From positions 806,001 through 870,000 of the forward strand of contig NZ_SOBH01000001.1 of NCBI RefSeq assembly GCF_004365635.1: DNA of 64,000 nt, read 5' to 3'. Shown one piece after another: positions 2,995 to 49,576 of this stretch. Made by a program: the position numbers and the translations under genes. The DNA is from Litoreibacter halocynthiae. GTDB lineage: Bacteria > Pseudomonadota > Alphaproteobacteria > Rhodobacterales > Rhodobacteraceae. Every line of letters begins with the position of its first letter. Positions within the stretch are counted from its first letter, which is position 1. The notes below the pieces were generated by a model. It worked only from the letters and a program-made list of their open reading frames with translations. It made no database searches and was not told the origin of the DNA.

Positions 2995-4648
2995 CGGCTT
3001 TGACCTCCGGATACAGGGCGGCTTTAAACGGCGCGAGGCCGAGGCGGCGATAGGCGTCGATGAAGCGTTCGTTTTCATCCTCGCGGTTTTGCAAATAGGC
3101 ACCGATCAGGCGCTCAATCGCTGGTACGATTTCGTCATATGCGAAGCCCGGTCCGGCGCGTTCACCCACTGCGGCGGTCTCGGTGTGATCGCCACCAAGT
3201 GTGATTTGATAGTTCTCCACGCCCGCGCGGTCCAAGCCAAGGATGCCGATATGGCCTACATGATGGTGGCCACAGGCGTTGATGCAGCCCGAGATTTTGA
3301 TCTTCAGATCACCGATTTCATGCTCCAGCTTCAACTCGTCAAACCGTGTTGCGATTTGTTGCGCGACAGGGATCGAGCGGGCGGTTGCCAGCGCGCAGTA
3401 ATCCATGCCGGGGCAGGCGATGATGTCGGAAATCTTACCGATATTTGCAGTCGTCAGATCAACAGATTTCAAGCGGGCGTGGATCGCAGGAAGGTGCGAT
3501 TTGTGCACGTGGGGCAGGATAACATTCTGCTCATGGCTGATACGAAGTTCGTTATGTGCAAATTCACGGGCAATCGCGGCCATCTCGCGCATCTGCGCAG
3601 AGGTCGCATCGCCGGGTGTTTGGCCATGCTTTTTGATCGAGATCGACACAATGGAATAGTCGTCGTTTTTATGTGCCGTCAGATTGGTATCCGCCCAAGA
3701 GCGGAATACTGGATCGCTGTGATAAGCGTCCTTGAACGCCGCAACAGAGCCGTTCTTGAATTCGGGCAGTGCGAACTGCGCCTCGATGTCTTTGAGCATC
3801 TTCTGGTCAACGCCACCGAACTGAGGTTTCAGCAGTGCAAAACGATCCTCAACCAAGTCGCGGATGGTCTCGATGCCGTTCTCGTGCACGGTGATCTTGA
3901 TGCGGGCTTTGTATTTGTTATCGCGGCGGCCCAGAAGGTTGTAGACGCTGACGATGGCCTCGCAATAGGGCAACAAATCCGCTTTGGGCAGGAAGTCCCG
4001 CAGCACCTTGCCGATCATCGGTGTGCGGCCTAAACCGCCGCCTACAATGATTTCATAGCCCTCTTCACCGTCACGCGTCAGCAAGCGAATGCCGATATCA
4101 TGCGCTTTAATAACGGCGCGGTCATTGGCCGATCCGGTCACGGCCAGTTTGAACTTACGGGGCAGGAACTGGAATTCCGGATGGTCAGTGGACCACTGGC
4201 GCAGCAACTCAGCAGTCGGGCGCGGGTCGGCGACCTCGTCCTTCGCGGCCCCTGCAAAATGGTCTGCGGTGACGTTACGGATCGTGTTGCCGGAGGTTTG
4301 GATGGCGTGCATGCCAACCTCGCCCAAGGCGTCCAGCATGTCTGGAACGTCCTTCAGTTTTGGCCAGTTGTACTGGATATTCTGGCGCGTGGTGAAGTGG
4401 CCGTAGCCCTTGTCCCACTTGTCCGCGATGTTCGCGAGCACATCCATCTGGCCGCCATTCAGCGTGCCATAGGGGATCGCCACACGCAGCATATAGGCGT
4501 GCAATTGCAGGTAGAGGCCGTTCATCAATCGCAGCGGCTTGAACTCGTCCTCGGTCAGGGAGCCGTCAATGCGGCGTTCCACCTGGGCGCGAAACTGGGC
4601 GTTGCGTTCCGCGAGGAAGTCGCGGTCGAAGTCATTGTACTGATACAT
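2984..4648 (-). CDS. cysI: Sulfite reductase hemoprotein (nitrite/sulfite reductase), ferredoxin-type
   Basis: 554 residues. It catalyses the six-electron reduction of sulfite to sulfide at a siroheme-[4Fe-4S] centre. Both cysteine motifs that hold the cluster and the axial ligand are visible (ACPGMDYC and SGCINACGHHHVGHIG). The two-fold repeated ferredoxin-like halves are recognisable (PYGTLNGGQMD with TTRQNIQYNW, and the second half with NELRISHEQNV). The start overlaps the stop of the preceding DUF2849 gene in a TAATG. The operon lacks the flavoprotein subunit CysJ, so electrons probably come from ferredoxin or from an accessory protein encoded in the operon. Confidence 0.93.
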   Translation of the reverse strand: MYQYNDFDRDFLAERNAQFRAQVERRIDGSLTEDEFKPLRLMNGLYLQLHAYMLRVAIPYGTLNGGQMDVLANIADKWDKGYGHFTTRQNIQYNWPKLKDVPDMLDALGEVGMHAIQTSGNTIRNVTADHFAGAAKDEVADPRPTAELLRQWSTDHPEFQFLPRKFKLAVTGSANDRAVIKAHDIGIRLLTRDGEEGYEIIVGGGLGRTPMIGKVLRDFLPKADLLPYCEAIVSVYNLLGRRDNKYKARIKITVHENGIETIRDLVEDRFALLKPQFGGVDQKMLKDIEAQFALPEFKNGSVAAFKDAYHSDPVFRSWADTNLTAHKNDDYSIVSISIKKHGQTPGDATSAQMREMAAIAREFAHNELRISHEQNVILPHVHKSHLPAIHARLKSVDLTTANIGKISDIIACPGMDYCALATARSIPVAQQIATRFDELKLEHEIGDLKIKISGCINACGHHHVGHIGILGLDRAGVENYQITLGGDHTETAAVGERAGPGFAYDEIVPAIERLIGAYLQNREDENERFIDAYRRLGLAPFKAALYPEVKADAA

Positions 4649-33087: not shown

Positions 33088-33421
33088 AATGAGGCGGAAA
33101 TGTGACGGGGAGTTTGGGCAACAGCGCAAGAATCACCGCTGGCGAGTTTTCCTTGCGAGCCGCAACATATTGACGAATTCCACAAGATATTCCCACATTT
33201 TGCAAATTTGCCGCGGGTTTTCCCCCCTTTCAAGCCCTTTTAGCGATTGAGGATCGCGTGTACTTTTGCGAGACTGATTCAAGCTGTTTCAACTAAAGGC
33301 AGCCGAGGCGGGTCGAATTATCCCAAGAACACGCGAGCAGGGCAAACCTTGTCGCAAACTCTCATTTTAGATGCGCGTGCTCTTGCGAGTTCGCGCAGTG
33401 TTTCGAGACGGGGACAATTGC

Positions 33422-36400
33422 ATGAAGATCTGGACCTCCCGCGATATTGCGGCACCAATTCTGATCTTACTATCGGTTATTTGGATGGGGCTCGGATTGG
33501 TTGCCACCTCCGCACAGGCCACGACCTTCACGTCCACTGTCCCTGGAACGTCAATCACATTGCCTACAGAATACCCTGAGGCAGGGGGCGTTGCCATCGT
33601 CATGATTGGCCTGAACGGTAACATATATTACCAGTTCTCCGACCCCGCCAACGCGTTTGTCGGCTTTAACAACCGTCCCAATCGTCCGGAGTTGGGAGGG
33701 AATCCTTTCACCATAAATGATCCGATCCCGCTTGATTGCGGCTTTTCAAGCTGCCGGGACTATTTTGGTGGTGGCCTTGCACGGGTCCATATCCGGTTTT
33801 CGGCCTATGACGGGGACACCCAACCGGGTGGCTTTGATGAAAATGACATCACTCTGCGAATAAACGGCTTCGATGTGGGGAGTTGGTCTGGCCTAACGAC
33901 CGAACGGACCAATGACAACGGCACGCGGTCCTTCGGGTTTAGAACCGGTTTTGGAAACAACACATTTAACACGGGCTGGTTCGCGTCCTCTAACTCCGGC
34001 TTAATGGATTCGTTGCTGGACACAGGGCCTACAGGTCAGACCACAATTCAGGTTTTTGACGACGACCCGAACGACAACTATTGGGATTTCCAGCGCGGCC
34101 CAAGCTTGCAGAACTCGAACATCCAAACGGTTGCCCCGGGTATGACAATCGAGAAGTCTGCCAACCCGACCACCTATAACGACGTCGGGGACGAGATTGA
34201 CTACACTTTTGTCCTGAGAAATATCGGTTCCGTTCCAATCCGCAATGTAGGCGTAACTGACGACAGGATCAGCGCGCAGGGTGGAAGCGTCACCTGCGAT
34301 GACCAAGTCATTTTAGACAGCCCGTCCGGTGCTGCCCAACCGTTTCAAACGATTTGTCGCGCAACTTACACTGTTACGCAGGCCGACATCGAGGCCGAGC
34401 AGGTCACCAACGTAGCAACCACCCAAGGTACCCCGGATTTTGGTGTGTTGGGTGCAGTTACGGATACCGAGACGGTCACCGGCCCACCTGCAATTCCTGC
34501 AATAACCCTCGAGAAATCAACGACAAGTGCAGCGTTCGGTGCGGCCAATACAACTGTGCCCTATGAATTCAGGGTCGAGAATACCGGCAACGTCACGCTG
34601 ACGGACATCACGGTCACGGACCCGAACATCCCCGGCCTGTCTTGCACCTTTGCAACAATGTTGCCGGATGCTGTCGAAACCTGCGCGGGAACTTATACGG
34701 TATTGCAAACTGACGTGGACAGTTTTGCCGCGGGGACGCTGCTTCGCAACGACGCCGAGGTCACCGCAGACGCGGCGACTGGCGGGGTCGTACAGGATAC
34801 GGACTTTGTGGAATTAAGCGGACCGGCCGCAGCACCCGCTTTGACCATCGTCAAGCGTGCCTTGACCGGGACGTATGATAGCGTCGGCGATGTCGTCCAA
34901 TACGCCTTCGATGTAACGAATACCGGAAATATCACCTTCCCTGCGCCGCCATCCGTGACCGACAGCCTGGGAATTCCCGTGACATGTCCCGCAGGCGCCA
35001 TGGCGCCAGGACGGCAGATCACCTGCACAGCAGAAATTTCCGTGACGCAACCTCATATCGATGACGGTCAGATCGACAATACCGCCACCGCGGAAATTTC
35101 GATTGCGGGTGTTAACCTGTCTGAGAGTGACAGCGCGATGGTGACGGCCACGCGCTCGACAGGTCTGACACTGACCAAGCGTTTGGCGTCCACCAGCCCG
35201 ACAAGCTTTGCGGCAGACGCGATAACGCTCAGCTACGAATATGTTTTGCGGAATACCGGGAATGTCACGCTAGAGGCCGTCGGCGTCATTGATGACAAAA
35301 CGACTGTGAGCTGCCCCGCATCCGAAATCGCACCGATGTCCCAGATCGTCTGTACCGCAGACTACATCACCTTGCAGATGGATGTGAACGATGGTGGCGT
35401 AACAAACACCGCGACGGCATCCGCCACCCCGCGTGGCGAGACTGTCGCGATCGAAAGCGTGGAGCAAGAGCTGACGGTGCCAGCCGTTCAAACACCATCT
35501 TTGGCACTGGCAAAAAGCGCCGGCGCGCCAGCCCCCAGCTTTAGCCTTGGCGCGACGATCACCTACACATTCGATGTGACGAACGACGGCAATGTAGACA
35601 ATCCGGGTCCGATCACCATCACTGACAGCAAACTTGGCGCACCATTCGAGTGCTTCGTAGGGCCTTTGCTTGCAGGGACAATGCAAAGCTGTACGCGCGA
35701 CTACACACTGACTACGGCTGATCTGCAGTCCGGCTTGGTCGTAAACTCTGCGACCGCAAGTGGCGGTGGTGTAACGTCGCCCAGCGATGGCGCAACGGTG
35801 TCCAACAGCGAAACGCCCGAAGTGACGCTGACCAAGACGGCATCGCCTTCGCCTATTCCCGCTGGCGTGACCTCCGTTACATATACGTTCAACGTTCAAA
35901 ATACGGGTACGGCGCAATTATTGCTGTCGACCAACCCGATCACGGTAAATGACCCCAATGTCGGAGCGGTCGATTGCTCGGCGCAGCCGGCAACACTCGA
36001 TGCGCCGACACTCCTTGCGGCAGGGGAGTCTTTCGACTGCACTGCGAGCTACACCTTAACGCAGGCCGAGATCGACGCGGGCGAGGTCGTGAACACGGCG
36101 TCCGCATCCTTCCCGTTCAACGACGGCTCCGGCGTGCAGACGATTACGTCCGACACCGCAACAGCGACGACACCGATTGCGGAGAACTTGCAGTTCACCT
36201 TTGCCAAGACCGGACCCGCGAGCTTCACCACTGTGAACGAGGTGTTGAGCTACAGCTTTGACATCGTGAATACCGGCAATGTCACGATGACGTCCTTCGT
36301 GCTGACCGATGATCTGATCAGCAACGCAAGCTGTCCTGTGAGCAGCTTGGCACCGTCTGCGTCCACCACCTGTACCGGCAGCTACACAGTCACCCAAGCG

Positions 36401-39400
36401 GACGTTGACGCGGGAACTGTTCTCAACAATGCCAGCGTGACCGGCCTTTCCGCTTCGGGCAGCCAGGACACGCAAACCGATAGCTCCACTGCGACGCGTG
36501 CGGTCCAACCTACCGACCGCGTGTTGAGCGTCGACAAAACTGCCAACCGTTTGGACTTCACCACGGTCGGCCAACAGCTGATCTATGCAATCGAGGTGAC
36601 CAATGACGGGTTGCAAACCCTGACGAACCTGACTGTCACGGACGTTCTTGATGCGGCCTATAGCTGTAACATTCCGACCCTCGCCCCGGGCGCGTCCAGT
36701 AGCAGTTGCACTTTCTCGCATGTTGTCACGCAAGACGACATCGACGCCGGGGAAGTGGTCAACCTTGCGACCGCGTCGGGTTCTGGTGTCGCGCCGCAAA
36801 CCTCTGGTTTGACCATTCCGGGGCCCACCCGAAACGCGAGTTTCACGGCCGTAAAAGACGCGCTGTCCGGCTATACTGTTGACGGCGATTCAATCACCTA
36901 TCGCTTCACCGTGACCAACAATGGCAACGTGCGCATCAACGGTGTTCAGGTCTCTGATCGTGGTCAGCTGTGCACGACGGTCGGAACGCTTGAGCCGGGT
37001 GAAGTTGACAATTCGTGCCAGTTTACCTTCCCTGTCACGCAGGCCGATGTGGATGCTGGCGGTGTCGTAAACACCGCGACTGTCACGGGTACAGGTGCGG
37101 ACGGGACGCCTCTAACTGAGACCCCTCAGGAAACTGTCACAGGCCCGCTCGAAGCCCCTGCATTGACCGTCACAAAAGTCGAAGATGACACCAGCGGCGA
37201 TTTCGGCCTGCCACTCAGCTCCGAGAGCTACACCATTACCGTCACCAATAGCGGCAATGTCACGCTGAACAATATCTCGGTCACCGATGCGCTGATCGGG
37301 CTGGATTGTATCGTGCCGACCTTGGCACCTTCCGCCACTGCGACCAGTTGTGACCCCGTCGGTGGTGGGGCATCCGTTCCGATGACGGGCAGCTACACGA
37401 TTACACAAGCGGATGTCGATCGCGGATCGTTGAGCAACACCGCAAGCGCATCCGGTACAACGATCAATGGTACGACCGTTGGTGATAGTGCAACCGTCGA
37501 GCTGGACAGTCCGGCACAAACCCGCTCGTTGGGTGTTGTGAAGACAAGCGACCTGACTGGCAACTTCGACACGCTTGGTCAGGTGATCACCTACAGCTAC
37601 GATGTGACAAACACCGGCAATACGACCCTGCCGAATGCAATCACCGTCACGGATGACCGAATCTCTTCGGTCACTTGTGATGCACTTCCTGCGGGTGGCC
37701 TACCACCAATGGGGGTTGTCACCTGCACGGGAACCTATGCAATCACACAACCTGATATTGATGCAGGGTCCGTGACCAACACTGCGAGCGCCACGACAAC
37801 GACAACGGCGGGCTCGATCACGTCGCCGGACGCTGTGCTCACACTGAACGCCGACCAAAACTTCGCCATGACCTTGGACAAGCGCTTGAAAAGCACGTCA
37901 GCTGTCAGCTTCTCCGCAGCGGCCGAGCCGCTTATTTATGAATATGTCGTGACCAATAGCGGGAACACGACGATCACTGACGACATAAAAATCGACGACG
38001 ACCGCTTCGGCACGGATTTGGTTTGTACGGCTGTCGATTTGGCCCCAACAGCGCAAATCATCTGCGAGCAGCCCTACAGCACGACCCAAGGCGACGTGAA
38101 TGATGGCGAAGTGACCAACACCGCCACCGCCTACACAGGGCCTAACCTTGGGGCCGCAACGCTCAGCTCCAACAGCGACAGCGTGACTGTACCAGCCTTG
38201 CAAAACCCGCTTCTGGTTGTTGAAAAGAACTTTGTTTCGGCCTCGGGCCTGCCGGTTTCAAACCCGGGATTCTTCGAGGGGCAGGAACTCACTTATAACT
38301 TCGTGGTCACAAATAGCGGTAATGTCTCGATCACCGTTGATCCTGCGACGGTCATCAGTGACCCAAAGATCGGCCCGTTCACCTGCACCGGAATACCAAC
38401 GATACTGGAGCCATCTGACACCTATACCTGCACAGGTCCGGCGTCGCCTTACACCGTCACGGCAAACGACATCCTTCTTGGGTCCGCTGTCAATGTGGCG
38501 ACCGCAACGGGTACACTGCCTGACGCCAGTCAAATCCTATCTGCGCCGAACAGTGCAATCTATCCATTGAATGCAGAACCTGCTGTCTCCGTGCTCAAGC
38601 GCACCGAACCTGCAACAGGTGTCACTTTCGCAGCGGTGAATGACGAGATTGATTATGTCTATGAGGTGACCAACACAGGCAATACTGGATTGCCATCCCC
38701 CGGGACCGTGACGGATGACAAATTCCCGGGTGAAACCATCACCTGCGTTGACCCGTCGGGAGGCACTTTCGCGCGCATAATCGACGAGCCGACGGAAATC
38801 GCAATCTGTACCAGAACCTACACCGTGACGCAGGAAGACCTTGATCGGGGGAGTGTAACCAACGTCGCCTCTGCGACGACGAGCTTTGCGGGTGATCCGG
38901 TGCAGTCCCAACCTGCCACACTTACCGTCAGCGGTGATGTTGAGGCTCTGGTTGCGCTAACCAAAGAAGTGTCACCCACCACGCCAGCGTCCGCAGGCGA
39001 TATATTGACCTACACGCTGACCGCAACGGCCTCGGGCAACCAAACCATTTTGGGTGCAAGCATTTCCGACCCGTTGCTGCCATCTCTCAGCTGCCTGCAA
39101 TCTGGTGCGAGTGTTACCAGTGCAGACCTTGACCCGAACGGCGATCCGCTGATTTGTACGGGCACGCTGACAGTCACTCAGGCGATGGTCGATGATCAGG
39201 AAGTCCGCAACACCGCGAATGTGCGCGGAGCTGCCCCCGACGGGACGATCGTTTCAACCGATACCGAAAACGTTTTGGGAGTCGATGCACCGAACGACGA
39301 GCTAACTGTTACGAAACGTATCAACCCGGAGCCGATCAGCGGAACCGACCCAGCCTATACCCAACCGGGTCAAGTGGTCACATTCATCGTTGAGGTTGAA

Positions 39401-42400
39401 AACACGGGCAACATCACGGTCGACAACATCAATGTCACCGACGACCTGATCGCAGGGACCTGCAATGTCGGCACGCTGGCACCTGGGGATAGAAACGACA
39501 GCTGTGTGTTCACCCTTACGGTGATGCAAGACGAGGTTGATGCCGGTTCGTTCACCAACGAGGCGACGGCATCGGGCACACCACGCGCGGGAGCCGGTCC
39601 GACGGTCGGGATCGACGATGTATTGGTTCTCGGCCCGCCCGCAGAGCCTGCAATTGCGTTTAACAAAGAAGCCAATGTGACCGACTTCTCGGCGGCAGGT
39701 GACGTGATCACCTATACGTTTACGGTCGCCAACGCGGGCAACGTGACGCTGTTCGCGCAGCCTTTTGTGACTGACGCCGCTATTCAGCCCGGCCCCTTCG
39801 CCTGTGGTACAATTCCGGCAGGTGGCCTTGCGCCGCAGGAGTTTGTTTCGTGCACGCGGGATTATCCCGTCACGCAAGCCGACGTGGACGCGGGAACGAT
39901 TACGAACAACGCAAGTGCCACCAGTGCTGAAGCCCCGACGCCGGAAGTCGCAAGCGTTACAACCACTGGTACGCGCACTCCGGGTGTGAGCCTGACAAAA
40001 ACACCGTCGATTACAGCGGATGCACAAATCGGTAACATAATCGAGTACACCTATCGTGTTAGTAACACAGGCAACGTGACCCTTGATGCGGTGACGATGG
40101 CGGACACGCATACCAGCGCCACGACCACAGCGCCCCTGAGCATCGCGGGCGACGTGCAAGTCGTTGATGCGGGTGTTGCCAACGACTCGACCGATGCGGG
40201 GGCTAACGGGATTTGGGATAGCCTCGCACCTGGTGATGCGGTTGAATTCAGTGCCGAATATACTGTCACGCAAGCCGATATCGACGCGAGGCAGGTGTTG
40301 TCCAATACCGCAAGCGTCAGCACATCCAGCCCCGCCGGGACAACCCCGCCAAGTGACAGCGTAACGGTCAATGTGCCGGTCGAAGTGTCGAACCCGGGTA
40401 TTGCCGTTGAAAAGACAGTGACGGGAAGCACCGGCAGTGCCGCTGATGACGTCGTGAGTTTCGAGATCGTTGTTCGCAACACTGGTAATGTAACGCTCGC
40501 AACACCGGTTCTCGACGACGATCTGACCCGAAACGGGGGCGCAGTTCTCGCTTTGACCACGGGGCCAACTCTCGCGTCCGGGAATGCCGCACCATTGGCA
40601 ACTCTCGATGTGGGTGAAGTCTGGACCTATCAGGCAAGCTACACCCTGACCCAAGCCGATGTGGATGCCGGAGGGATCGACAACACGGTGCTTGTCACGA
40701 CCACGTCACCGGACGGAACGCCCGTTTCAGACCGGTCTGGCAACGGGTTGCCCGGGGGCGAAGACAGCCCGACGCCGTTCGACATTGTTGTTGATCCACA
40801 AATCTCGTCGTTGAAAACCATTACCTCCAGCACGATCGCCGTGGATGAGGTGGTGACGTTCCAGATCACAGTTACAAACGACGGCAATGTCACCCTGAAC
40901 AGTGTCAGTGTTGACGATACGCTGACGCGTGTGGATGGAACCGTTCTGGCACTCGACGCGCCGGTGGCTTTCGCGGGGGCTGGCAATGGGTCACCTCAGG
41001 GAACGCTTCTGCCGGGCGAGATCGCGACCTACACCGCGCAATACACTTTGACCCAAGCTGACATCGACGCGGGTGGTATTTCGAACACCGCGGAGGTCAG
41101 CGGCACGCCCCTAAGCGGTGTTCCCGTAACGGATACATCCGATGACGGGGATACCGGAGCAGGGGATACCGGCGACGATCCGACGGTTTTGGACATTCCC
41201 GAAGACCGCGCGATTGAGCTGGTTAAAAGACTCGTGGATGGCGAACCTGCGAATTTCACCGAGGATGGCGCCATCCTGCGATATGAATTCGTGGTGACCA
41301 ACGCGTCCAACGTAACGCTGACCGACGCGATTACGATCACCGACCCCCTGATCACCGATGCAGGGGGTACGATCACCTGTCCTGCGCCACCAGTTGCTCC
41401 GGGTGAAAGCATCAGTTGTTTCGGGGACTATGAGGTTCTGCAATCTGACGTGGATGCCGGAGGTGTCGACAACGCAGCCACCGCAACCAGTGGTGCCACA
41501 ACCAGTCCCGAAGCGACGTTGACAGTGCCTTCTGTGCAGAGCCCGGCGATGGAGCTTTTGAAAGAAGCCGAGGAAGTTCTGGCAACCGACTTCTTCACGG
41601 GTCCCGAGATTTCCTACACCTACACAGTGACCAACACCGGCAACGTGACAATTTTTGATCCGATTGCGGTCGAGGATAACCTGATTGATACGGTGGTTTG
41701 CCCGACACCTTTCCCAACGGAAGGGATCGCTCCGGACGGAACCTATGTCTGTACGGCCACCTATACGGTAACGGCCACTGATGTAGATCTTGGACAGGTC
41801 ACCAACACCGCAAATGCAACCGACGGCACCACACCCAGCCCGACCGTCACGGAAACCATCCCTGATGCAGCGACCCCCTTGCTGGAGATCACTAAGACCG
41901 CCGAAGCAGGTGCGACTTTTGCGGAGGTGGGTGACGAGATCACCTACACATTCGAAGTTCTCAATGCGGGGACGCGAACCTTTGCCTCCGTGGTGACGGT
42001 CTATGACAACCGTCTTGGCGAAATCATCTGCTTCGATCCCGCTGCAGATCCGACAAACGACCCCGATTTTCGCGCTGGTGAAGTGCTGACTTGCACGGGC
42101 ACTGATCAAGTGACGCAAGAGGACTTGGACGCGGGTGAAGTGACCAACGAGGCCTATGCACAAACGCTGTTCGGGGCGGGTGATACTCCGGTCAGTTCAA
42201 CACCGGTTGACGTGACCGTGGCGGCGGATCTAACGCCGGAGCTGACGTTCTCCAAAGTGTCGAGCCCGAACCCTGCGGGCGCTGTCGGCACGGATATTAC
42301 CTATTCGTTTACTGCGACCAATACAGGTAACCAGACCCTTAACACGGTCAGCGTCAGCGATCCCTTCTTCCCGACGCTTGTCTGCTCCACGCCGGAATTG

Positions 42401-45400
42401 TTGCGCGGGGACAGCCTGACCTGCACCGCGACATATGAAATTACGCAAGACGACATTGATGCAGGCGAAGTGCAGAACACGGCGACGGCCACGGCACAGA
42501 CACCGCAAGGTGGCGAGCTGGAAGAGACCAGCGCAGAGACGACAACCATGCCGACTGCCAATCCGCTTATGTCGGTGGTCAAGCGCCCCAGCGTGTCGCC
42601 CTTCGGCCCTGTGGGCAGTTCTGTGACCTACACGTTTGACGTGACCAATGACGGCAACGTGACGCTGTTCAATGTTGCGGTCGATGACAGCTTGGATAGC
42701 GGGCCTGCGTGTGAGATCGCGCGGCTGAATGTCGGGGCAACGGATAGCAGTTGTGCGTTCACGCTTGAAGTAGATCAGGCGCTGGTCGATGCGGGCAGCT
42801 TGACCAACACAGTTGACGTCACCGCTGCAGATCAGTTGGGCAACCCGGTAGATGCCACGGCGACGATTATCACGACTGGCCCGACCCAAGCGCCGTCACT
42901 TGAGGCCACAAAGGTGGTCAGCTTTAGCGGCGTCGCCGTCGGCGATTTGGCCAGCTATACTTTGCAGGTAGAGAACACAGGAAACGTCACCCTTGATAAT
43001 GTGAACGTGACCGACACGATGACGCGAAACCTGAACGGGCGCAGTGTTGCGCTGGACAGCCCGTTTGCACTGGTCGCGTCAAGCGATGCGGATGGCGATG
43101 GCCGGCTCGATGTGGGCGAGACTTGGGTCTACACCGCGACCTTCACGCTGACCCAAGCGGATTTGAACGCTCAGGGTGTGTCGAACACGGTGGTGGTCGA
43201 TGCCATAGGACCGGATACCACACCGGTGAGTGACACATCGGATAACGGCAATGATGGTGACGGCAACTTGACCGACGATCCGACCGTGGTTTCGATCACG
43301 TCGGACCCGCGCCTTGTGGTGACCAAAGAGGTCGTATCGGCAGGCTCCATTGCAGGCGAGCAAGTTGTCTTCCGCATCACTGCGGCCAACACTGGCAATG
43401 TCGATATTGATGGTGTCACGATTGACGACCAACTGACACGAAACGGTGGTGGTGCGCTGGCGCTGACCACGGGGCCAACTCCAGTCGGCGATGCTAGCTT
43501 TATCGGTGCCGGTGAGCAGGTCATCTGGGATGCAACCTACACGCTGCTGCAAGAGGATATCGATGCGGGTGGCGTTGCCAACTCTGCGACCGTTTCGGGC
43601 ACAGGTCCTGATGGTAGCGCAGTGAGCGACCTGTCAGCCGACGGGGACCCATTCGATGGCAATGTGGAAAATGACCCGACCGTTGTGACCATTCCGGCGG
43701 CGCCAGCCTTGGACGTGCTAAAACGTGTGGTTTCGGCGGATGAGCCGTTTGATGGTGGCCGCGTCGAGTTCGCGGTTGAAGTCGCCAATACCGGCAACGT
43801 TACCCTGAGCAGCGTTGCCTTGATCGAGAACTTGCGTCGGCTGGATGGCGCGGCGCTGACGCCGACCAGCGTCAGCTTTGATAGCGCTTCAGAAGGGTCG
43901 GGCGAAGGAACGCTGAATCCGGGTGAAACAGCGACGTACACTGTGAGCTACATCCTGACCCAAGACGATGTCGATGCGGGCGGGGTCAGCAACTCGGTAA
44001 CGGCAACCGCGACAACACCACTCGGTGGCCCGCTTTCTGATGTGTCCCGCGATGACGACCCCTCGGATGGCAATGATGAGGACGATCCGACGATCGCGAC
44101 GATCGAAGCCGCTCCGGCGAATACCTTCGTCAAAACGGCGTCGCAACCCGTGCCGCTCTTCCCGATGATCTATCAGGTGACGTTCACTCTGACGGTCGAG
44201 AATACCGGCAATGTGACGCAAGAGGGCTACCAGATTGCGGATGATCTAAGCGCTTTTGAAGGCTCGGCGGAAGTGTTGCGGGATGCACCGTTCGGGCTGT
44301 CGGTTCGCACCAGCGGCTTTACCGACGCGGCGGTCAATCCGTCCTTTGACGGGGCAGGCGACACCGCGACGTTGAGCGGGAATCCGACCCTTGCGCCGGG
44401 CGAAACCGGAACGGTTGAAATTGATGTGGTCTACAGCACCGAAGGGGCGGGCGTGCCAGCGGACAACGTGGCAAATCTGACCTCCGGTCTTTTGCCAAGC
44501 CCGCAAGATGCGACCGCCAGTGTGGCCGTGACGGACAGTGACGGGGACGGGGTGCCAGACTCCCTAGAATCAGCGACAGCGGACCGTGACGGGGACGGCA
44601 TACCTGACGCAAACGATTACGATCCGACGGGCTATTTCTATTGCGAGGATGACGGGCGCATTCTTGCGGGGGGCTCAATCTCGGTTACGGGGCCATTCGG
44701 CACACAAACCGGTGTCGGGACCAGCAACTTCATCACCATCGTGCGGGATGGCAGTGCAGGGGAGTTCCAGTTCTTTGTCACCCGCGCCGGCACCTACACG
44801 ATCAACCCGACCTATCCGGCGTCCGGTGCCGTGTCGACAAGCCGTTTGGCAAGCCCGACACTCGACGCGACCAGCCTGCTTCCAGCCAATCCGGCCTCTA
44901 TCGGGTCCTCGGAGTTTGGCGCCACCGACCGACTTGCGGACTTCTCCGCAGGGGCGAACCCGTTCTACCTGACCCTGACCTTCGAGGCGGGTGATCCGTT
45001 CATCCTGAACAACAACATCCCGCTGGAAAACTGCGCGGGAACGCCCGATTTGCAGGCAACCAAAGTCGCCGACCGCAATTCGGCTGTGTTCGGCGAGGCG
45101 GTGAACTTCACTCTGACCTTCACCAACAATACGCCGACGACAGTGACCAACGCGACACTGGTCGACCTGTTGCCAGCCGGTATGCTCTACACTCCCAACA
45201 CCGCACGCGTGGATGGGGCCGCGATTGAGCCAACCGTGACAGGCTTGCATCTAGAATGGCCGGGGCAGACCGTGACGCCGGGACAAACCATAAACCTGAC
45301 GCTTTCGGCGCGGGTGGTGGCGAACGGCTCTTACGGTGATCTGACCAACAGAGGGTTCCTTGCCAACGCCGCTGGTGCGCCGATTTCAAACGTCGCCACG

Positions 45401-46006
45401 GCTGTCGTGCGGGTCGAGCCGGAGCATGTGTTTGATTGCTCCGACATCATTGGCAAGGTTTTCGATGACAAGAACCAGAACGGCTATCAGGATCAGGGAG
45501 AGCCGGGCTTGCCCGGTGTGCGCTTGGCGACTGTGCGTGGCTTGCTGATAACGACCGACGAGCATGGCCGGTATCACGTGCCTTGTGCAGAGCTTCCGAA
45601 AGATATCGGCTCCAACTTCACGCTTAAACTCGACACACGGACATTGCCCACAGGCTACCGCGTGACCACGGAAAACCCGCGTGTGATCCGTGTTACGGCT
45701 GGTAAGTTCGCCAAGCTGAACTTCGGTGCGTCGCTGTCCAATGTGGTTGATATCGACCTCACCGCTGCGGCGTTCCTTGGCAGCTCGTCCAAGCCATCTG
45801 CTGCGTTGGAGAGCGGGGTTGATGGGTTGATTGGTCAGATCAAATCGACACCTTCGGTGCTGCGGCTCAGCTACATTCTGAAAGGTGAAGACCGGAAACT
45901 CGCGAATGCGCGACTGAAGGCGGTTGAAAGCCTTGTTCGAGAGCGCTGGAAAGGCTCCGGCAGATACAAGCTCAACATCGAACGCAGCATCAAGCGTGTG
46001 CAGTAG
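33422..46006 (+). CDS. Giant exported DUF11-repeat protein with SdrD_B-like and OmpA-like C-terminus
   Basis: 4194 residues. ATG 33422 with GGGGA upstream gives an N-terminal signal sequence (APILILLSVIWMGLGLVATS, cleavage near AQA). Residues about 30-240 form a non-repeat N-terminal domain with a few cysteines. Residues about 240-3690 are DUF11/DUF7507-type beta-sandwich repeats of about 110-130 residues. I count 28 copies of a YTVTQADVDAG..NTA motif plus one degenerate copy. Most have a cysteine pair; six are cysteine-free with Asp-rich linkers. Then come DSDGDGVPDS and DRDGDGIPDANDYDP loops (about 3705-3735, thrombospondin-3-like calcium sites) and a further DUF11 unit. An SdrD_B-like domain follows (GKVFDDKNQNGYQDQGEPGL, about 4010). 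The tail RLSYILKGEDRKLANARLKA resembles an OmpA-family periplasmic domain. It is probably a cell-surface fibre held at its C-terminus. No LPXTG, RTX or autotransporter barrel is seen. The next gene, 12 nt on, encodes a likely outer-membrane partner. Confidence 0.85.
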   Translation: MKIWTSRDIAAPILILLSVIWMGLGLVATSAQATTFTSTVPGTSITLPTEYPEAGGVAIVMIGLNGNIYYQFSDPANAFVGFNNRPNRPELGGNPFTINDPIPLDCGFSSCRDYFGGGLARVHIRFSAYDGDTQPGGFDENDITLRINGFDVGSWSGLTTERTNDNGTRSFGFRTGFGNNTFNTGWFASSNSGLMDSLLDTGPTGQTTIQVFDDDPNDNYWDFQRGPSLQNSNIQTVAPGMTIEKSANPTTYNDVGDEIDYTFVLRNIGSVPIRNVGVTDDRISAQGGSVTCDDQVILDSPSGAAQPFQTICRATYTVTQADIEAEQVTNVATTQGTPDFGVLGAVTDTETVTGPPAIPAITLEKSTTSAAFGAANTTVPYEFRVENTGNVTLTDITVTDPNIPGLSCTFATMLPDAVETCAGTYTVLQTDVDSFAAGTLLRNDAEVTADAATGGVVQDTDFVELSGPAAAPALTIVKRALTGTYDSVGDVVQYAFDVTNTGNITFPAPPSVTDSLGIPVTCPAGAMAPGRQITCTAEISVTQPHIDDGQIDNTATAEISIAGVNLSESDSAMVTATRSTGLTLTKRLASTSPTSFAADAITLSYEYVLRNTGNVTLEAVGVIDDKTTVSCPASEIAPMSQIVCTADYITLQMDVNDGGVTNTATASATPRGETVAIESVEQELTVPAVQTPSLALAKSAGAPAPSFSLGATITYTFDVTNDGNVDNPGPITITDSKLGAPFECFVGPLLAGTMQSCTRDYTLTTADLQSGLVVNSATASGGGVTSPSDGATVSNSETPEVTLTKTASPSPIPAGVTSVTYTFNVQNTGTAQLLLSTNPITVNDPNVGAVDCSAQPATLDAPTLLAAGESFDCTASYTLTQAEIDAGEVVNTASASFPFNDGSGVQTITSDTATATTPIAENLQFTFAKTGPASFTTVNEVLSYSFDIVNTGNVTMTSFVLTDDLISNASCPVSSLAPSASTTCTGSYTVTQADVDAGTVLNNASVTGLSASGSQDTQTDSSTATRAVQPTDRVLSVDKTANRLDFTTVGQQLIYAIEVTNDGLQTLTNLTVTDVLDAAYSCNIPTLAPGASSSSCTFSHVVTQDDIDAGEVVNLATASGSGVAPQTSGLTIPGPTRNASFTAVKDALSGYTVDGDSITYRFTVTNNGNVRINGVQVSDRGQLCTTVGTLEPGEVDNSCQFTFPVTQADVDAGGVVNTATVTGTGADGTPLTETPQETVTGPLEAPALTVTKVEDDTSGDFGLPLSSESYTITVTNSGNVTLNNISVTDALIGLDCIVPTLAPSATATSCDPVGGGASVPMTGSYTITQADVDRGSLSNTASASGTTINGTTVGDSATVELDSPAQTRSLGVVKTSDLTGNFDTLGQVITYSYDVTNTGNTTLPNAITVTDDRISSVTCDALPAGGLPPMGVVTCTGTYAITQPDIDAGSVTNTASATTTTTAGSITSPDAVLTLNADQNFAMTLDKRLKSTSAVSFSAAAEPLIYEYVVTNSGNTTITDDIKIDDDRFGTDLVCTAVDLAPTAQIICEQPYSTTQGDVNDGEVTNTATAYTGPNLGAATLSSNSDSVTVPALQNPLLVVEKNFVSASGLPVSNPGFFEGQELTYNFVVTNSGNVSITVDPATVISDPKIGPFTCTGIPTILEPSDTYTCTGPASPYTVTANDILLGSAVNVATATGTLPDASQILSAPNSAIYPLNAEPAVSVLKRTEPATGVTFAAVNDEIDYVYEVTNTGNTGLPSPGTVTDDKFPGETITCVDPSGGTFARIIDEPTEIAICTRTYTVTQEDLDRGSVTNVASATTSFAGDPVQSQPATLTVSGDVEALVALTKEVSPTTPASAGDILTYTLTATASGNQTILGASISDPLLPSLSCLQSGASVTSADLDPNGDPLICTGTLTVTQAMVDDQEVRNTANVRGAAPDGTIVSTDTENVLGVDAPNDELTVTKRINPEPISGTDPAYTQPGQVVTFIVEVENTGNITVDNINVTDDLIAGTCNVGTLAPGDRNDSCVFTLTVMQDEVDAGSFTNEATASGTPRAGAGPTVGIDDVLVLGPPAEPAIAFNKEANVTDFSAAGDVITYTFTVANAGNVTLFAQPFVTDAAIQPGPFACGTIPAGGLAPQEFVSCTRDYPVTQADVDAGTITNNASATSAEAPTPEVASVTTTGTRTPGVSLTKTPSITADAQIGNIIEYTYRVSNTGNVTLDAVTMADTHTSATTTAPLSIAGDVQVVDAGVANDSTDAGANGIWDSLAPGDAVEFSAEYTVTQADIDARQVLSNTASVSTSSPAGTTPPSDSVTVNVPVEVSNPGIAVEKTVTGSTGSAADDVVSFEIVVRNTGNVTLATPVLDDDLTRNGGAVLALTTGPTLASGNAAPLATLDVGEVWTYQASYTLTQADVDAGGIDNTVLVTTTSPDGTPVSDRSGNGLPGGEDSPTPFDIVVDPQISSLKTITSSTIAVDEVVTFQITVTNDGNVTLNSVSVDDTLTRVDGTVLALDAPVAFAGAGNGSPQGTLLPGEIATYTAQYTLTQADIDAGGISNTAEVSGTPLSGVPVTDTSDDGDTGAGDTGDDPTVLDIPEDRAIELVKRLVDGEPANFTEDGAILRYEFVVTNASNVTLTDAITITDPLITDAGGTITCPAPPVAPGESISCFGDYEVLQSDVDAGGVDNAATATSGATTSPEATLTVPSVQSPAMELLKEAEEVLATDFFTGPEISYTYTVTNTGNVTIFDPIAVEDNLIDTVVCPTPFPTEGIAPDGTYVCTATYTVTATDVDLGQVTNTANATDGTTPSPTVTETIPDAATPLLEITKTAEAGATFAEVGDEITYTFEVLNAGTRTFASVVTVYDNRLGEIICFDPAADPTNDPDFRAGEVLTCTGTDQVTQEDLDAGEVTNEAYAQTLFGAGDTPVSSTPVDVTVAADLTPELTFSKVSSPNPAGAVGTDITYSFTATNTGNQTLNTVSVSDPFFPTLVCSTPELLRGDSLTCTATYEITQDDIDAGEVQNTATATAQTPQGGELEETSAETTTMPTANPLMSVVKRPSVSPFGPVGSSVTYTFDVTNDGNVTLFNVAVDDSLDSGPACEIARLNVGATDSSCAFTLEVDQALVDAGSLTNTVDVTAADQLGNPVDATATIITTGPTQAPSLEATKVVSFSGVAVGDLASYTLQVENTGNVTLDNVNVTDTMTRNLNGRSVALDSPFALVASSDADGDGRLDVGETWVYTATFTLTQADLNAQGVSNTVVVDAIGPDTTPVSDTSDNGNDGDGNLTDDPTVVSITSDPRLVVTKEVVSAGSIAGEQVVFRITAANTGNVDIDGVTIDDQLTRNGGGALALTTGPTPVGDASFIGAGEQVIWDATYTLLQEDIDAGGVANSATVSGTGPDGSAVSDLSADGDPFDGNVENDPTVVTIPAAPALDVLKRVVSADEPFDGGRVEFAVEVANTGNVTLSSVALIENLRRLDGAALTPTSVSFDSASEGSGEGTLNPGETATYTVSYILTQDDVDAGGVSNSVTATATTPLGGPLSDVSRDDDPSDGNDEDDPTIATIEAAPANTFVKTASQPVPLFPMIYQVTFTLTVENTGNVTQEGYQIADDLSAFEGSAEVLRDAPFGLSVRTSGFTDAAVNPSFDGAGDTATLSGNPTLAPGETGTVEIDVVYSTEGAGVPADNVANLTSGLLPSPQDATASVAVTDSDGDGVPDSLESATADRDGDGIPDANDYDPTGYFYCEDDGRILAGGSISVTGPFGTQTGVGTSNFITIVRDGSAGEFQFFVTRAGTYTINPTYPASGAVSTSRLASPTLDATSLLPANPASIGSSEFGATDRLADFSAGANPFYLTLTFEAGDPFILNNNIPLENCAGTPDLQATKVADRNSAVFGEAVNFTLTFTNNTPTTVTNATLVDLLPAGMLYTPNTARVDGAAIEPTVTGLHLEWPGQTVTPGQTINLTLSARVVANGSYGDLTNRGFLANAAGAPISNVATAVVRVEPEHVFDCSDIIGKVFDDKNQNGYQDQGEPGLPGVRLATVRGLLITTDEHGRYHVPCAELPKDIGSNFTLKLDTRTLPTGYRVTTENPRVIRVTAGKFAKLNFGASLSNVVDIDLTAAAFLGSSSKPSAALESGVDGLIGQIKSTPSVLRLSYILKGEDRKLANARLKAVESLVRERWKGSGRYKLNIERSIKRVQ
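34141..44118 (+). repeat. Tandem coding repeats (DUF11-type), about 28-29 units
   Basis: Each unit of roughly 330-390 nt encodes: a KT/TK start, YTF.VTNTGNVTL, a VTD..L segment, C..LAPG...C, then YTVTQADVDAG...NTATA. Units are diverged, not identical, so the array is old. Two runs of cysteine-free units occur, at about 39982-41205 and 42893-44115. Confidence 0.8.
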
Positions 46007-46018
46007 GGGAGCGGGATT

Positions 46019-49000
46019 ATGAAAATGAACAATACCTTACGCGCCGTTTTGATTGCCTCTACTTCCATGGTGTGGGGCGGGGCGGTAACTGCTCAAGAAG
46101 CGGATTTTGAAACCTCTTGCGCATTGGTCAACGGCGTTCTTCCTGCCAATTGTACGCAAGACAACGCGTCCGAGGTCGTTGTTGTCCCCGCGGGAGAGAA
46201 CAACGAGCTAGATCGCGGCAACGCTGCGGTTGGCGGGGATGGCTTCCTGATCTCCATCGATGGCAAACCTGTCATTGGTGACAAGCGGGTAGAAGACGAA
46301 ATCCGCAAAACTGACATCGCGCTGTCCAACGCGGATGTGCAGGTGAAGTTCGACGGATTGGGTGCGGTACCGCGCCTTGACCTCGTCGCCGTCGATCAAA
46401 CCGAAGCCTTCGAAGCAGGCGATGTTGTCACATTCCGCTCGCGGACAAACTACCCCGCCTACCTGTCGCGCGGCGAGGTGCGCATGGTGGATATCGGCAA
46501 CGCAGCAGGACCGAAAACCTTGGCCGTGGTGCCGGTGCAACCGAACGGCTCCGTCTCAGTGACCATCCCCGAAGGCCGCGACGTTGTTGCTATCCACAGA
46601 GTGTATGACGCGCGCGGGCGCTACAACGAGACCGAACCGCTTTCCCTGCAAGGCAGCGACGACCGTGGACTGTTTGCGCAGGCTGAGGAAGGCACCGACG
46701 CCACCCGTGTCCGTGGTATCCCCGTCTCCGGTGGGGCGATCACCGTCTACGGTAAGGGGGTGCGCTCAGGTGCAACTGTCCAAACCTTGGGCGAGAATGT
46801 TAAGCCTGATGCGGATGGCAGCTTCGTCGTGCAGCGCATCTTGCCTGCGGGCGAACGCGACGTCGAAGTACGGATCAGCGGCGCGGGAGAGGACATCTAC
46901 CTGCAACGCTCCGTCGAAATTCCACGCTCCGAGTGGTTTGGCGTGGCGACGGTGGATCTGACCTTTGGATACCGTGAAGATGCGGGCAAGAACGCCGCAG
47001 GCGGTGCCGTGGATAAGTATTACGACCGAGGGCGGTTGGCGTTTTACGTGAAAGGCAAAACGCAAAAGGGTTGGAACATCACCGCCAGCGCAGACACGGG
47101 CGAAGACGAGTTGAGCGAGATATTCCGCAACCTCGACAAGAAAGACCCGCGCCACCTTCTGCTCCGGCTCGACAGTGAAAAAGCCTATCCCGTTTACGGT
47201 GATGACAGTACGATAGTTGAAGACGCGCCGACCTCTGGCAAGTTCTACTTCAAAGCAGAGCGGGAGGGCAATTTCGCCCTGTGGGGGAACTACAAAGGTC
47301 AGGTCAACGGATCGCATTTCCTGCGCAACGAACGCACGCTTTACGGCTTCCAAGGACATGTGCAGACACAGGCGACGACGTCCAAAGGCGAGCCTCGGGC
47401 AGAGCTTGATCTATATGCCGCGCAGCCAGATACGTTGCCGGGTCGGGATGTGTTCCGTGGCACTGGCGGCTCGGTTTACTTCCTGCAACGCCAAGACCTA
47501 TCCATTGGCTCTGAAACCATCGCCATCGAAATCCGCGACCCTGACACGGGCCGCGTGACCAGTCGCGAGGTGCTCGTATACGGGCGCGACTATGACATCA
47601 ACTACTTGCAAGGTGTCATCACGCTGACGCGGCCTTTAACGGGGGCTACGGGCGGTGGCACGGTGATCACTGACCCGCTGGGCGAGAACACAGTCCAGTT
47701 GACTGTGAACTATGAATTCACCCCGACCGCAGGAACCATCGATGGCTACGCCTATGGTGGGCGGGCGCAATTCTGGGCAACCGATAATCTGCGGTTCGGC
47801 GCGACAGGTCTGGTCGAGCAGACGGACATCGCCGACCAAACGGCATACGGCGCGGACATGCGCTACGAGATTTCCGACACCACATTCCTGGAGCTTGAAT
47901 ATGCCCGCACAGAGGGGCCGGGGTTCGGGTCTAGTTATTCGTCTGATGGTGGCCTGATCGTGACCAACACCAATGCGGTTGGTGGTACGGGTGAGGCCTA
48001 TATGGCCCGTGGGCAAGTGGATCTGAAAGACCTCAACCCGGATCTGAACGGCCAGCTAGGCGCGTATTACGAAAAGCGTCGGGCAGGGTTCTCGACGCTG
48101 GATTACCAGACCACCGTTGATGAGGAACTATGGGGTGTTTACGGCGAGTATGCACCAACTGAACGGCTGTCTTACCGTCTTTACTATGATGATTTCACCG
48201 ATGACGCGGGCAAGGTCGCTCGCGAGGGCGGGCTGGAAGTGACCTATAAGGTCAGCAAACGCCTGACCTACGATTTCGGCATCGAGCATATCGACAAGGT
48301 GACCCCCGCGGGTGCGGCGGACGAGACAGGCAAGCGCACTGACGTTGCTGTGCGCGCGACGATCACGGTGAACCCGAAGTTGGAATACTCCGTGTTCGGT
48401 CAAGCGACGGTTTCTCGCTCTGGCGGGCTGGCACGCAATCACCGTGTTGGTGCAGGCGTGAAATATCAATTCGCACAAAATTGGACCTTTGAGGGCGAAA
48501 TCTCCGATGGGTCGCGCGGGGTAGGGGCGTTGGCGCTGCTGTCTTATGACAATGGCAAGGATGGCACAGCATATTTCGGATACACCCTTGATCCCGGCCG
48601 CAGCTATAACGGCGTGGACCTGAGCGGAAAGGACCGTGGTCAGTTCGTAGTTGGTGGTACCCGCCGCTTGAGCCAAGCGGTCGATGTCTATGCCGAGAAT
48701 ACATATGATCTGTTCGGGCAGCACCGTTCGCTAACCTCGACTTACGGGATCAACTACGCGCGGTCCGAATTCCTGCGCTACTCGGCCTCCGTCGAGGTTG
48801 GTCGCGTGGACGATAGTGCGAACGGTGACTTTGATCGCACCGCACTGTCCTTTGGTGTGCGGTATGAAAACCAGACAGGTGTTACAGGCACCGCGCGCTT
48901 GGAATACCGACGTGACCGCGGGGTCTATAACAACACCAGTCGTGACGGTGACACGATCGCGCTGGTCTCGACCCTGCGCTACAAAATCGATGAAGAGCAA

Positions 49001-49576
49001 CGGTTGCTGTTCAGTTTCGATGGCAGCTACACCGACACTGACGGCTCTTCGATCCCTGACGGGCGCTATGCGGAGCTGACTTTGGGCTATGCCTATCGTC
49101 CCATTGAAAACGACCGGCTGAACGTGCTGCTCAAGTATACCTACCTGCATGACCTCTACGGGCAGGAAGTGGACGGCACCAATGACCCCGGCCCGCGCCA
49201 GAAAAGCCATGTGCTGTCCTTGGACGCGTCCTACGATCTGAACCGCAATTGGACCTTGGGCGGCAAGCTGGGTGGCCGCTGGTCGCAAAGCTCTCCGGAT
49301 GCGACGACGGCGTTTCAGGACAATGATGCGTGGCTGGTCGTGGCGAATGCGCGTTACCACCTGACCCATAAATGGGACGTTCTGGTCGAAGGGCGCGCTT
49401 TGCGGGCAGAGCAGGCGGGCGTCACGGAATACGGCATATTGGGCGCCGCGTATCGCCATATCGGGAACAACTACAAGGTGGGTGTCGGGTATAATTTCGG
49501 GAAATTCTCGGATGACCTGACGGATTTGACTTATGACGACAAGGGCATGTTTATTAACCTGATCGCGAAGTTCTAG
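46019..49576 (+). CDS. Predicted outer-membrane beta-barrel partner of the giant DUF11 protein
   Basis: 1185 residues. Signal peptide (MNNTLRAVLIASTSMVWGGA, cleavage near VTAQE). An N-terminal periplasmic part (to about 300) contains Ig-like or carbohydrate-binding-like strands. A conserved core follows at about 310-540: ATVDLTFGYREDAGKN, FYVKGKTQKGWNITASADTG, NLDKKDPRHLLLRLDSEKAY, PVYGDDSTIVEDAPTSGKFY and LVYGRDYDINYLQGVITL. From about 560 to the end there are alternating amphipathic strands with many aromatic girdle residues, finishing MFINLIAKF, a C-terminal Phe typical of barrels inserted by BamA. GGGGAGCGGG precedes the ATG. No TonB box is evident. It is probably cotranscribed with the giant gene; secretion, anchoring or assembly roles are inferred. 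Confidence 0.8.
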   Translation: MKMNNTLRAVLIASTSMVWGGAVTAQEADFETSCALVNGVLPANCTQDNASEVVVVPAGENNELDRGNAAVGGDGFLISIDGKPVIGDKRVEDEIRKTDIALSNADVQVKFDGLGAVPRLDLVAVDQTEAFEAGDVVTFRSRTNYPAYLSRGEVRMVDIGNAAGPKTLAVVPVQPNGSVSVTIPEGRDVVAIHRVYDARGRYNETEPLSLQGSDDRGLFAQAEEGTDATRVRGIPVSGGAITVYGKGVRSGATVQTLGENVKPDADGSFVVQRILPAGERDVEVRISGAGEDIYLQRSVEIPRSEWFGVATVDLTFGYREDAGKNAAGGAVDKYYDRGRLAFYVKGKTQKGWNITASADTGEDELSEIFRNLDKKDPRHLLLRLDSEKAYPVYGDDSTIVEDAPTSGKFYFKAEREGNFALWGNYKGQVNGSHFLRNERTLYGFQGHVQTQATTSKGEPRAELDLYAAQPDTLPGRDVFRGTGGSVYFLQRQDLSIGSETIAIEIRDPDTGRVTSREVLVYGRDYDINYLQGVITLTRPLTGATGGGTVITDPLGENTVQLTVNYEFTPTAGTIDGYAYGGRAQFWATDNLRFGATGLVEQTDIADQTAYGADMRYEISDTTFLELEYARTEGPGFGSSYSSDGGLIVTNTNAVGGTGEAYMARGQVDLKDLNPDLNGQLGAYYEKRRAGFSTLDYQTTVDEELWGVYGEYAPTERLSYRLYYDDFTDDAGKVAREGGLEVTYKVSKRLTYDFGIEHIDKVTPAGAADETGKRTDVAVRATITVNPKLEYSVFGQATVSRSGGLARNHRVGAGVKYQFAQNWTFEGEISDGSRGVGALALLSYDNGKDGTAYFGYTLDPGRSYNGVDLSGKDRGQFVVGGTRRLSQAVDVYAENTYDLFGQHRSLTSTYGINYARSEFLRYSASVEVGRVDDSANGDFDRTALSFGVRYENQTGVTGTARLEYRRDRGVYNNTSRDGDTIALVSTLRYKIDEEQRLLFSFDGSYTDTDGSSIPDGRYAELTLGYAYRPIENDRLNVLLKYTYLHDLYGQEVDGTNDPGPRQKSHVLSLDASYDLNRNWTLGGKLGGRWSQSSPDATTAFQDNDAWLVVANARYHLTHKWDVLVEGRALRAEQAGVTEYGILGAAYRHIGNNYKVGVGYNFGKFSDDLTDLTYDDKGMFINLIAKF

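Follow-up and report, generated by a model that had tools for sequence, protein, structure and literature searches.

A giant fibrillar adhesin and a putative outer-membrane barrel as a candidate two-gene surface-display unit in Litoreibacter halocynthiae

The genome of Litoreibacter halocynthiae (GCF_004365635.1; 3.68 Mb in nine contigs) encodes, within the 64,000-nucleotide stretch analysed here (the window; contig NZ_SOBH01000001.1, positions 806,001 to 870,000), a giant protein of 4194 residues with the domain content of a fibrillar adhesin and, immediately downstream, a protein of 1185 residues that is predicted to end in an outer-membrane beta-barrel. We propose, with a probability of roughly 0.55, that the two genes form a surface-display unit in which the adhesin crosses the outer membrane through, and stays anchored to, a barrel dedicated to it.

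Linkage of the adhesin tail and the barrel gene

The last 201 residues of the giant constitute a conserved tail of two halves, and sequence comparison indicates that this tail, not the stalk of immunoglobulin (Ig)-like repeats, is what the barrel follows. Matches to both parts were collected from samples of the family (100 genomes), the class (240) and the phylum (349) and from plasmid records. The barrel was matched in 14 of the 100 family genomes, L. halocynthiae included. With this genome left out, a tail-bearing open reading frame (ORF) lies directly upstream in 12/12 two-gene copies with upstream sequence; one of the 12 is broken (G022), and a copy that starts inside the barrel (G021) was set aside. 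The copies in G006, G054 and G067 are single ORFs. All five Litoreibacter loci show the tail/barrel pair, as do both loci of the genome studied here, where a second, shorter pair outside the window comprises a barrel 59% identical to the first and a partner of 1476 residues. The closest named relative found for the window's barrel, from Litoreibacter ascidiaceicola, is 98% identical.

Among the plasmids, 22 records matched and 16 were opened, of which 15 carry a tail-bearing ORF upstream of the barrel and the sixteenth a single ORF. The 15 include one remnant beside insertion sequence (IS) elements, one frameshifted copy and one cyanobacterial copy whose tail is matched weakly (E 2.5e-7). In Paracoccus alcaliphilus (L058, 12006-14980), about 200 residues of tail remain ahead of the barrel, with IS110 and IS5 elements immediately before them, and the adhesin gene was probably cut by insertion. 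In Eleftheria terrae (L029, 1-2889), genes with FecR and CHASE2 domains lie directly upstream of the pair and are a possible regulator of it.

In the class sample, with the genome of the window counted, barrels were found in 10/240 genomes and tails in 13/240; G138, G190 and G309 hold partial SdrD_B-type tail matches without a barrel. Outside that genome, six separate barrels are whole or almost so; four of them adjoin a tail (G215, G244 and G250 in opened loci, G118 by coordinates), and the two in G216 and G320 do not. In G118 and G250, which belong to one genus, the barrel is split over two frames, and fragments in G318 and G216:C8 were dropped. In the phylum sample at E<=0.001, barrels occur by hand count in 50 genomes, tails in 41 and both in 36. 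A barrel of at least 190 bits and a tail of at least 80 bits each pick out the same 18 of the 349 genomes, both cut-offs having been set after the score gaps were seen (below them come a barrel of 176 bits and, in a genome outside the 18, a tail of 45). In this strong group, all 16 separate barrels other than the two of L. halocynthiae adjoin a tail gene by coordinates. Three of its loci were opened (G501, G600:C25 and G244); the order is reversed in G501, with the barrel first, and G523 is broken over contig ends. Fragments in G543 and G514 were dropped from the phylum sample. Tail and barrel identities correlate at r 0.85 (406 pairs from 29 loci), which was not used as proof of contact because it mostly reflects shared descent.

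Tail and barrel also occur within one chain. In G561, a genome of the strong phylum group, a single open frame of 2079 residues, its 5' end cut by the contig, comprises a repeat, the tail (residues 761-948, covering profile positions 1-188 of 201), nine residues and the barrel protein (residues 958-2079), which there has no signal peptide. In the class sample, G156, G267 and one further gene of G320 are fused; a 4548-residue frame of G320 carries the tail's SdrD_B half at 3485-3634 and the barrel at 3678-4546. A 2008-residue Acinetobacter plasmid protein is also a fusion. The weaker-scoring phylum group consists mostly of single long frames: by hand count, 30 barrel frames reach 1500 residues or more, and 19 of these (1576-2396 residues) match the tail too. 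The occurrence of the same pieces in both fused and split form argues strongly for a joint function of tail and barrel, and the giant and the barrel protein very probably act as one functional unit.

Architecture of the giant protein

Fibrillar adhesins are recognised by their great length and by stalk domains of isopeptide type in tandem. The giant has both (4194 residues, 29 repeats), and its sequence points to a fibrillar adhesin with a variable tip, an isopeptide-type Ig stalk and a conserved C-terminal tail. The repeats had been noticed in an earlier sequence-only reading of this DNA, and Pfam assigns DUF7507 to 29 stretches (E=0) and DUF11 to 17 (7.5e-68). An iterated repeat profile gave 30 matches, namely 29 full repeats spaced 106-144 residues apart and a last piece of 40 residues. 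A published survey (PMC12617251) describes intramolecular isopeptide bonds formed from Lys, Asp and Asn in the DUF11 and DUF7507 families, renames them CLIPPER and CLIPPER_2, and reports such adhesins as widespread in Gram-negative bacteria; the adhesin class of the giant is already in print. In the corresponding columns of the 29 repeats, Asp was found in 28 (Glu in one), Asn in all 29 and an upstream Lys in all 29 by a loose test that counts any Lys within a 22-residue stretch, and the complete set is present in 28/29. The giant would probably form a surface fibre cross-linked by isopeptide bonds.

The tip gave no Pfam match above cut-off to a known adhesive domain. Of the 20 loci searched, not all of them full length, three have a similar tip (E 1e-90 or better), and no other match in the 20 falls below E 0.6.

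The first half of the tail resembles the SdrD_B domain, which was matched at E<=1 by 22/29 tails; against the PDB, the tail profile found SdrD B domains together with some chance-level matches. The second half was modelled as beta-alpha-beta-alpha-beta, the topology of OmpA-like domains, in a block with a predicted local distance difference test (pLDDT) of 70-94 in the best of five models (mean pLDDT 67; 52-54 in the other four). The hhalign comparison between the tail and true OmpA domains is weak (probability 12.5, E 0.0023). The other 28 aligned tails are 46-99% identical to that of the window, and the tail is kept throughout in partner frames from 743 to more than 4900 residues, broken copies left out. 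With a constant tail on partners that differ in length and tip, the pattern is the one expected if tips and stalks are swapped on a fixed docking module.

In one alphaproteobacterial genus, that of G216 and G320 (L094-L097, L102 and L104), two tail genes bear an extra C-terminal extension. In L059, with a barrel 30% identical to that of the window, the tail profile covers partner residues 1064-1392, and residues 1429-1493 beyond it match the Pfam OmpA domain; L059 is an IMG/VR 'viral' contig with a DUF11 adhesin and barrel pair, and may include host sequence. No member was added by two more scans of viral contigs, and a phage record collection gave no match. Elsewhere, a Pfam OmpA domain lies on the N-terminus of the barrel protein or in a separate neighbouring gene (L106 875-6034, L029 11236-15453, L028 9787-10869). 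Across lineages, the OmpA part seems to be passed from one partner to the other.

The barrel protein

The second protein had been read as an outer-membrane barrel from its sequence. It ends in Phe (...NLIAKF), and its matches to barrel families and its strand pattern fit a putative barrel of that class; the structure model is of too low a quality to show it closed. No Pfam or NCBIfam family reaches cut-off in this protein, its Pfam barrel matches being weak (best E 0.0029). Among 33 relatives, OMP_b-brl is the most frequent match (15/33 at E<=0.01) and YadA_anchor is matched by one (4.1e-5), and no TonB plug, other TonB-receptor domain or classical autotransporter domain was found in the 33 at E<=0.01. 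A sequence search of the PDB gave no match, and the family profile returned only meaningless channel matches.

The model, computed with AlphaFold2 from seven sequences, has 29 strands within residues 662-1184, mostly in blocks of pLDDT 57-86. Its top Foldseek matches in the PDB are the outer-membrane barrels SlpA, TonB receptors, LptD, MtrB and SprA, and the list also includes apolipoprotein B. A scan of residues 304-1185 for alternating hydropathy counted 34-38 strand-like segments at four settings, at which LptD of this genome gave 22-27 and its two Omp85 proteins 14-20; LptD has 26 strands and Omp85 proteins have 16. The count is 28-38 over all six settings (28-31 at the remaining ones) and 39-43 with family-averaged hydropathy, on a scan that is crude and with guessed barrel limits for the yardstick proteins. 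The protein may thus form a very large barrel, perhaps of around 36 strands, a figure that is an estimate and no measured number.

Proposed export route and alternatives

Judging from their signal peptides, both proteins would be exported to the periplasm by Sec, and the 1185-residue protein would insert in the outer membrane as a large beta-barrel. The fibre would point its N-terminal tip away from the cell on a stalk of about 30 Ig repeats locked by isopeptide bonds, and its tail, with the SdrD_B and OmpA-like halves, would dock it near the cell. As a dedicated port, the barrel would recognise the tail, pass the fibre outward and hold its base. A surface fibre with the N-terminus out is likely. 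Whether the barrel exports the fibre as well as anchoring it is evenly balanced, and from the sequences we infer both that the tail docks on the barrel and that the fibre passes through it.

A giant exported by Sec must still cross the outer membrane. No POTRA_2 protein was matched in the genome, and the one secretin, with GspD as its best NCBIfam match far below cut-off, has as neighbours CpaB, which is above cut-off, and a TadA-like ATPase, which falls just short of it, for which reason the locus is read as a Tad/Flp pilus. The POTRA_2 and secretin searches, type 1 secretion genes not having been searched genome-wide, gave no other route for a Sec substrate, which makes the dedicated barrel the obvious candidate. 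Since isopeptide-locked domains are hard to unfold, the chain would pass unfolded and lock outside, or the pore would be wide; both would fit a large barrel. The earlier proposal of a secretion or display arrangement outside the standard types holds as to a single functional unit, and no scan gave a standard type; export, anchoring or assembly as the barrel's role is the part that we infer. A new secretion route, in which Ig domains, perhaps in folded and already isopeptide-locked form, pass through a single-chain barrel with about 36 strands that retains the tail as a base plug, in split and fused forms across Pseudomonadota and distantly in at least one cyanobacterium, appears unlikely.

It is possible, though doubtful, that the barrel is an anchor only, holding the tail at the inner or outer face of the membrane after the fibre has crossed by another route, BAM-assisted or of another kind. 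The OmpA-like topology modelled for the tail end would suit such a role, the occurrence of Pfam OmpA in relatives on the giant, the barrel protein or a separate gene suggests envelope anchoring, and a published Acinetobacter relative is described as having an OmpA-like anchoring domain (PMC12617251). However, the two genome searches revealed no other exporter for a Sec substrate (no POTRA_2, one secretin beside CpaB), and a barrel of the suggested size exceeds the needs of an anchor. The OmpA-like topology would also allow the giant to be periplasmic, with its end tied to peptidoglycan and the barrel merely linking it to the outer membrane, but this is highly improbable: the usual OmpA Asp is not retained in the window's tail as judged by eye, the variability of the tip fits surface contact, and the stalk of about 30 Ig domains in a row would far exceed the width of the periplasm. 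That the barrel is a nutrient receptor or transporter for which the fibre captures substrate is improbable too. The protein is annotated as 'TonB-dependent receptor' in 7/22 plasmid records, TonB-dependent receptors are among the Foldseek matches, and varied ABC-transporter genes were seen by eye near the pair in several plasmid records; yet a plug or other TonB-receptor domain was found in 0/33 members, no transporter type is constant among the plasmid neighbours by eye, and the ten scanned neighbours in the window include no transporter except LptF/LptG for lipopolysaccharide export.

Several observations weigh against the proposal that the barrel is the adhesin's dedicated port and anchor. 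The sequence-only reading had taken giant homologues that regularly lack a barrel neighbour as the sign of a false pairing; because DUF11/DUF7507 repeats also occur in other surface proteins (PMC12617251), the question was put to the tail instead of the whole giant. Such tails were encountered in the genus of G216 and G320, each of which has orphan barrels and two orphan tail ORFs that are unlinked, and perhaps in G211, where a full tail is present and no barrel was found in a genome 81% complete; the other two-gene loci examined had none. At E<=0.001 the phylum lists differ, 14 genomes having the barrel only and five the tail only, and no formal probability is claimed for the co-occurrence because the counted genomes are related. 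The AlphaFold2 model of the barrel protein is poor (mean pLDDT 53, predicted template modelling score 0.37), and its Foldseek template modelling scores (TM-scores) are low, at 0.37 or less throughout. Export by the barrel is, moreover, proposed from sequence.

Gene starts, features and neighbouring genes

The ORF listing agrees with the earlier description of the giant, the 12-nt spacing and the second protein (Table 1). The open frame of the giant extends upstream to an in-frame ATG (33371-46006, 4211 residues); the start at 33422 was preferred because GGGGA lies 7 nt before its ATG and nothing similar precedes 33371. A Shine-Dalgarno sequence had been noted within the 12-nt gap, and GGGGAG, overlapping the stop codon of the giant, is a good ribosome site for it. 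The signal peptides noted earlier on both proteins were likewise recognised by eye, from an n/h/c pattern ending in an AxA-type site.

Pfam scans of ten larger neighbouring ORFs (21.7-54.9 kb, part of the window's ORFs) found no protein-secretion or sortase gene, in line with the earlier remark that type 1, two-partner and type 9 secretion and sortase components are missing nearby. Nearby genes include LptF/LptG and LptD. At 78-830, the window encodes a repetitive protein rich in Ala, Thr, Asp and Glu, underlain at 460-604 by a 66-nt tandem repeat.

Table 1. Features of the adhesin and barrel locus, in window coordinates.
Feature	Position	Strand	Basis
Giant protein, predicted fibrillar adhesin, 4194 aa	33422..46006	+	ORF listing, ribosome site, Pfam
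Putative signal peptide of giant, 33 aa	33422..33520	+	By eye
N-terminal tip region	33521..34156	+	No Pfam match above cut-off; similar region in 3/20 loci
Stalk, 29 Ig-like DUF7507/DUF11 repeats	34166..44479	+	Pfam, iterated profile
Last DUF11 domain ahead of tail	45047..45349	+	Pfam
Tail, first half, SdrD_B-like domain	45401..45721	+	Pfam and profile matches
Tail, second half, beta-alpha-beta-alpha-beta	45740..46003	+	Structure model
Gap between giant and barrel gene, 12 nt	46007..46018	+	GGGGAG begins in preceding stop codon
Barrel partner, 1185 aa, terminal Phe	46019..49576	+	ORF listing, sequence and model comparison
Putative signal peptide of barrel protein, 25 aa	46019..46093	+	By eye
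N-terminal non-barrel region, about aa 60-300	46196..46918	+	Conserved in family
Presumed barrel region, about aa 306-1185	46934..49573	+	Model and strand scan

Comparison with known systems

By analogy, the pair would work like two-partner secretion or an autotransporter, but it lacks their defining features. Both systems (T5b and T5a) combine a large exported adhesin with one barrel, as two genes or as a fusion of N-terminal passenger and C-terminal barrel; here, in contrast, no POTRA, two-partner secretion (TPS) or autotransporter beta-domain was matched, the presumed barrel spans about 880 residues, and the usual order is tail then barrel. Two-partner secretion was rejected because neither protein has a Pfam match to a POTRA or TPS domain and the genome has no POTRA_2 match, and a classical T5a autotransporter because no autotransporter beta-domain was matched in the barrel protein or in the 33 members. 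Type 9 secretion was set aside in the absence of any SprA-type or sorting-domain match (Pfam, NCBIfam) in the two proteins, the genome not having been searched for that system. A type 1 secreted adhesin does not fit a giant with a Sec signal peptide (by eye) and no RTX match, nor a type 2 system a genome whose only secretin found adjoins CpaB. Membership of the TonB-dependent receptors was rejected on the plug domain, found in 0/33 members at E<=0.01.

The large single-chain barrels SlpA of Deinococcus, LptD and MtrB rank high in Foldseek, with TM-scores of at most 0.31 in the best 50 rows, which supports the fold class only. SprA, the type 9 translocon, has a barrel of 36 strands as described in PMC10994853, possibly similar in size, and its structure 6h3i stands at Foldseek rank 13; it differs in that no sequence relation was found, no type 9 domain was matched and the TM-score is low. 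The Acinetobacter silvestris protein B9T28_05395 shares with the giant a tandem isopeptide Ig stalk and has the N-terminal adhesive region and OmpA-like C-terminal domain that are presumed for the giant (PMC12617251); the main text of that paper never mentions 'beta-barrel', 'outer membrane' or 'secretion', whereas here a dedicated barrel gene follows.

Significance

A literature search (titles and abstract starts, subscription journals mostly uncovered) found no description of the barrel family or the gene pair among the papers listed, and these apparently give no account of how DUF11/CLIPPER adhesins cross and hold the outer membrane. What is new here is the apparently undescribed barrel partner of a known adhesin class, and the linkage or fusion of the pair in many bacteria suggests an undescribed way of displaying sticky fibres on the cell surface. 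The recurrent label 'TonB-dependent receptor' would be corrected. SprA is among the largest known single-chain barrels, and the barrel would join it if the number of strands is truly about 36. A barrel family that tracks the adhesin tail across the phylum is a concrete candidate for the means by which these adhesins cross the outer membrane and remain attached to it.

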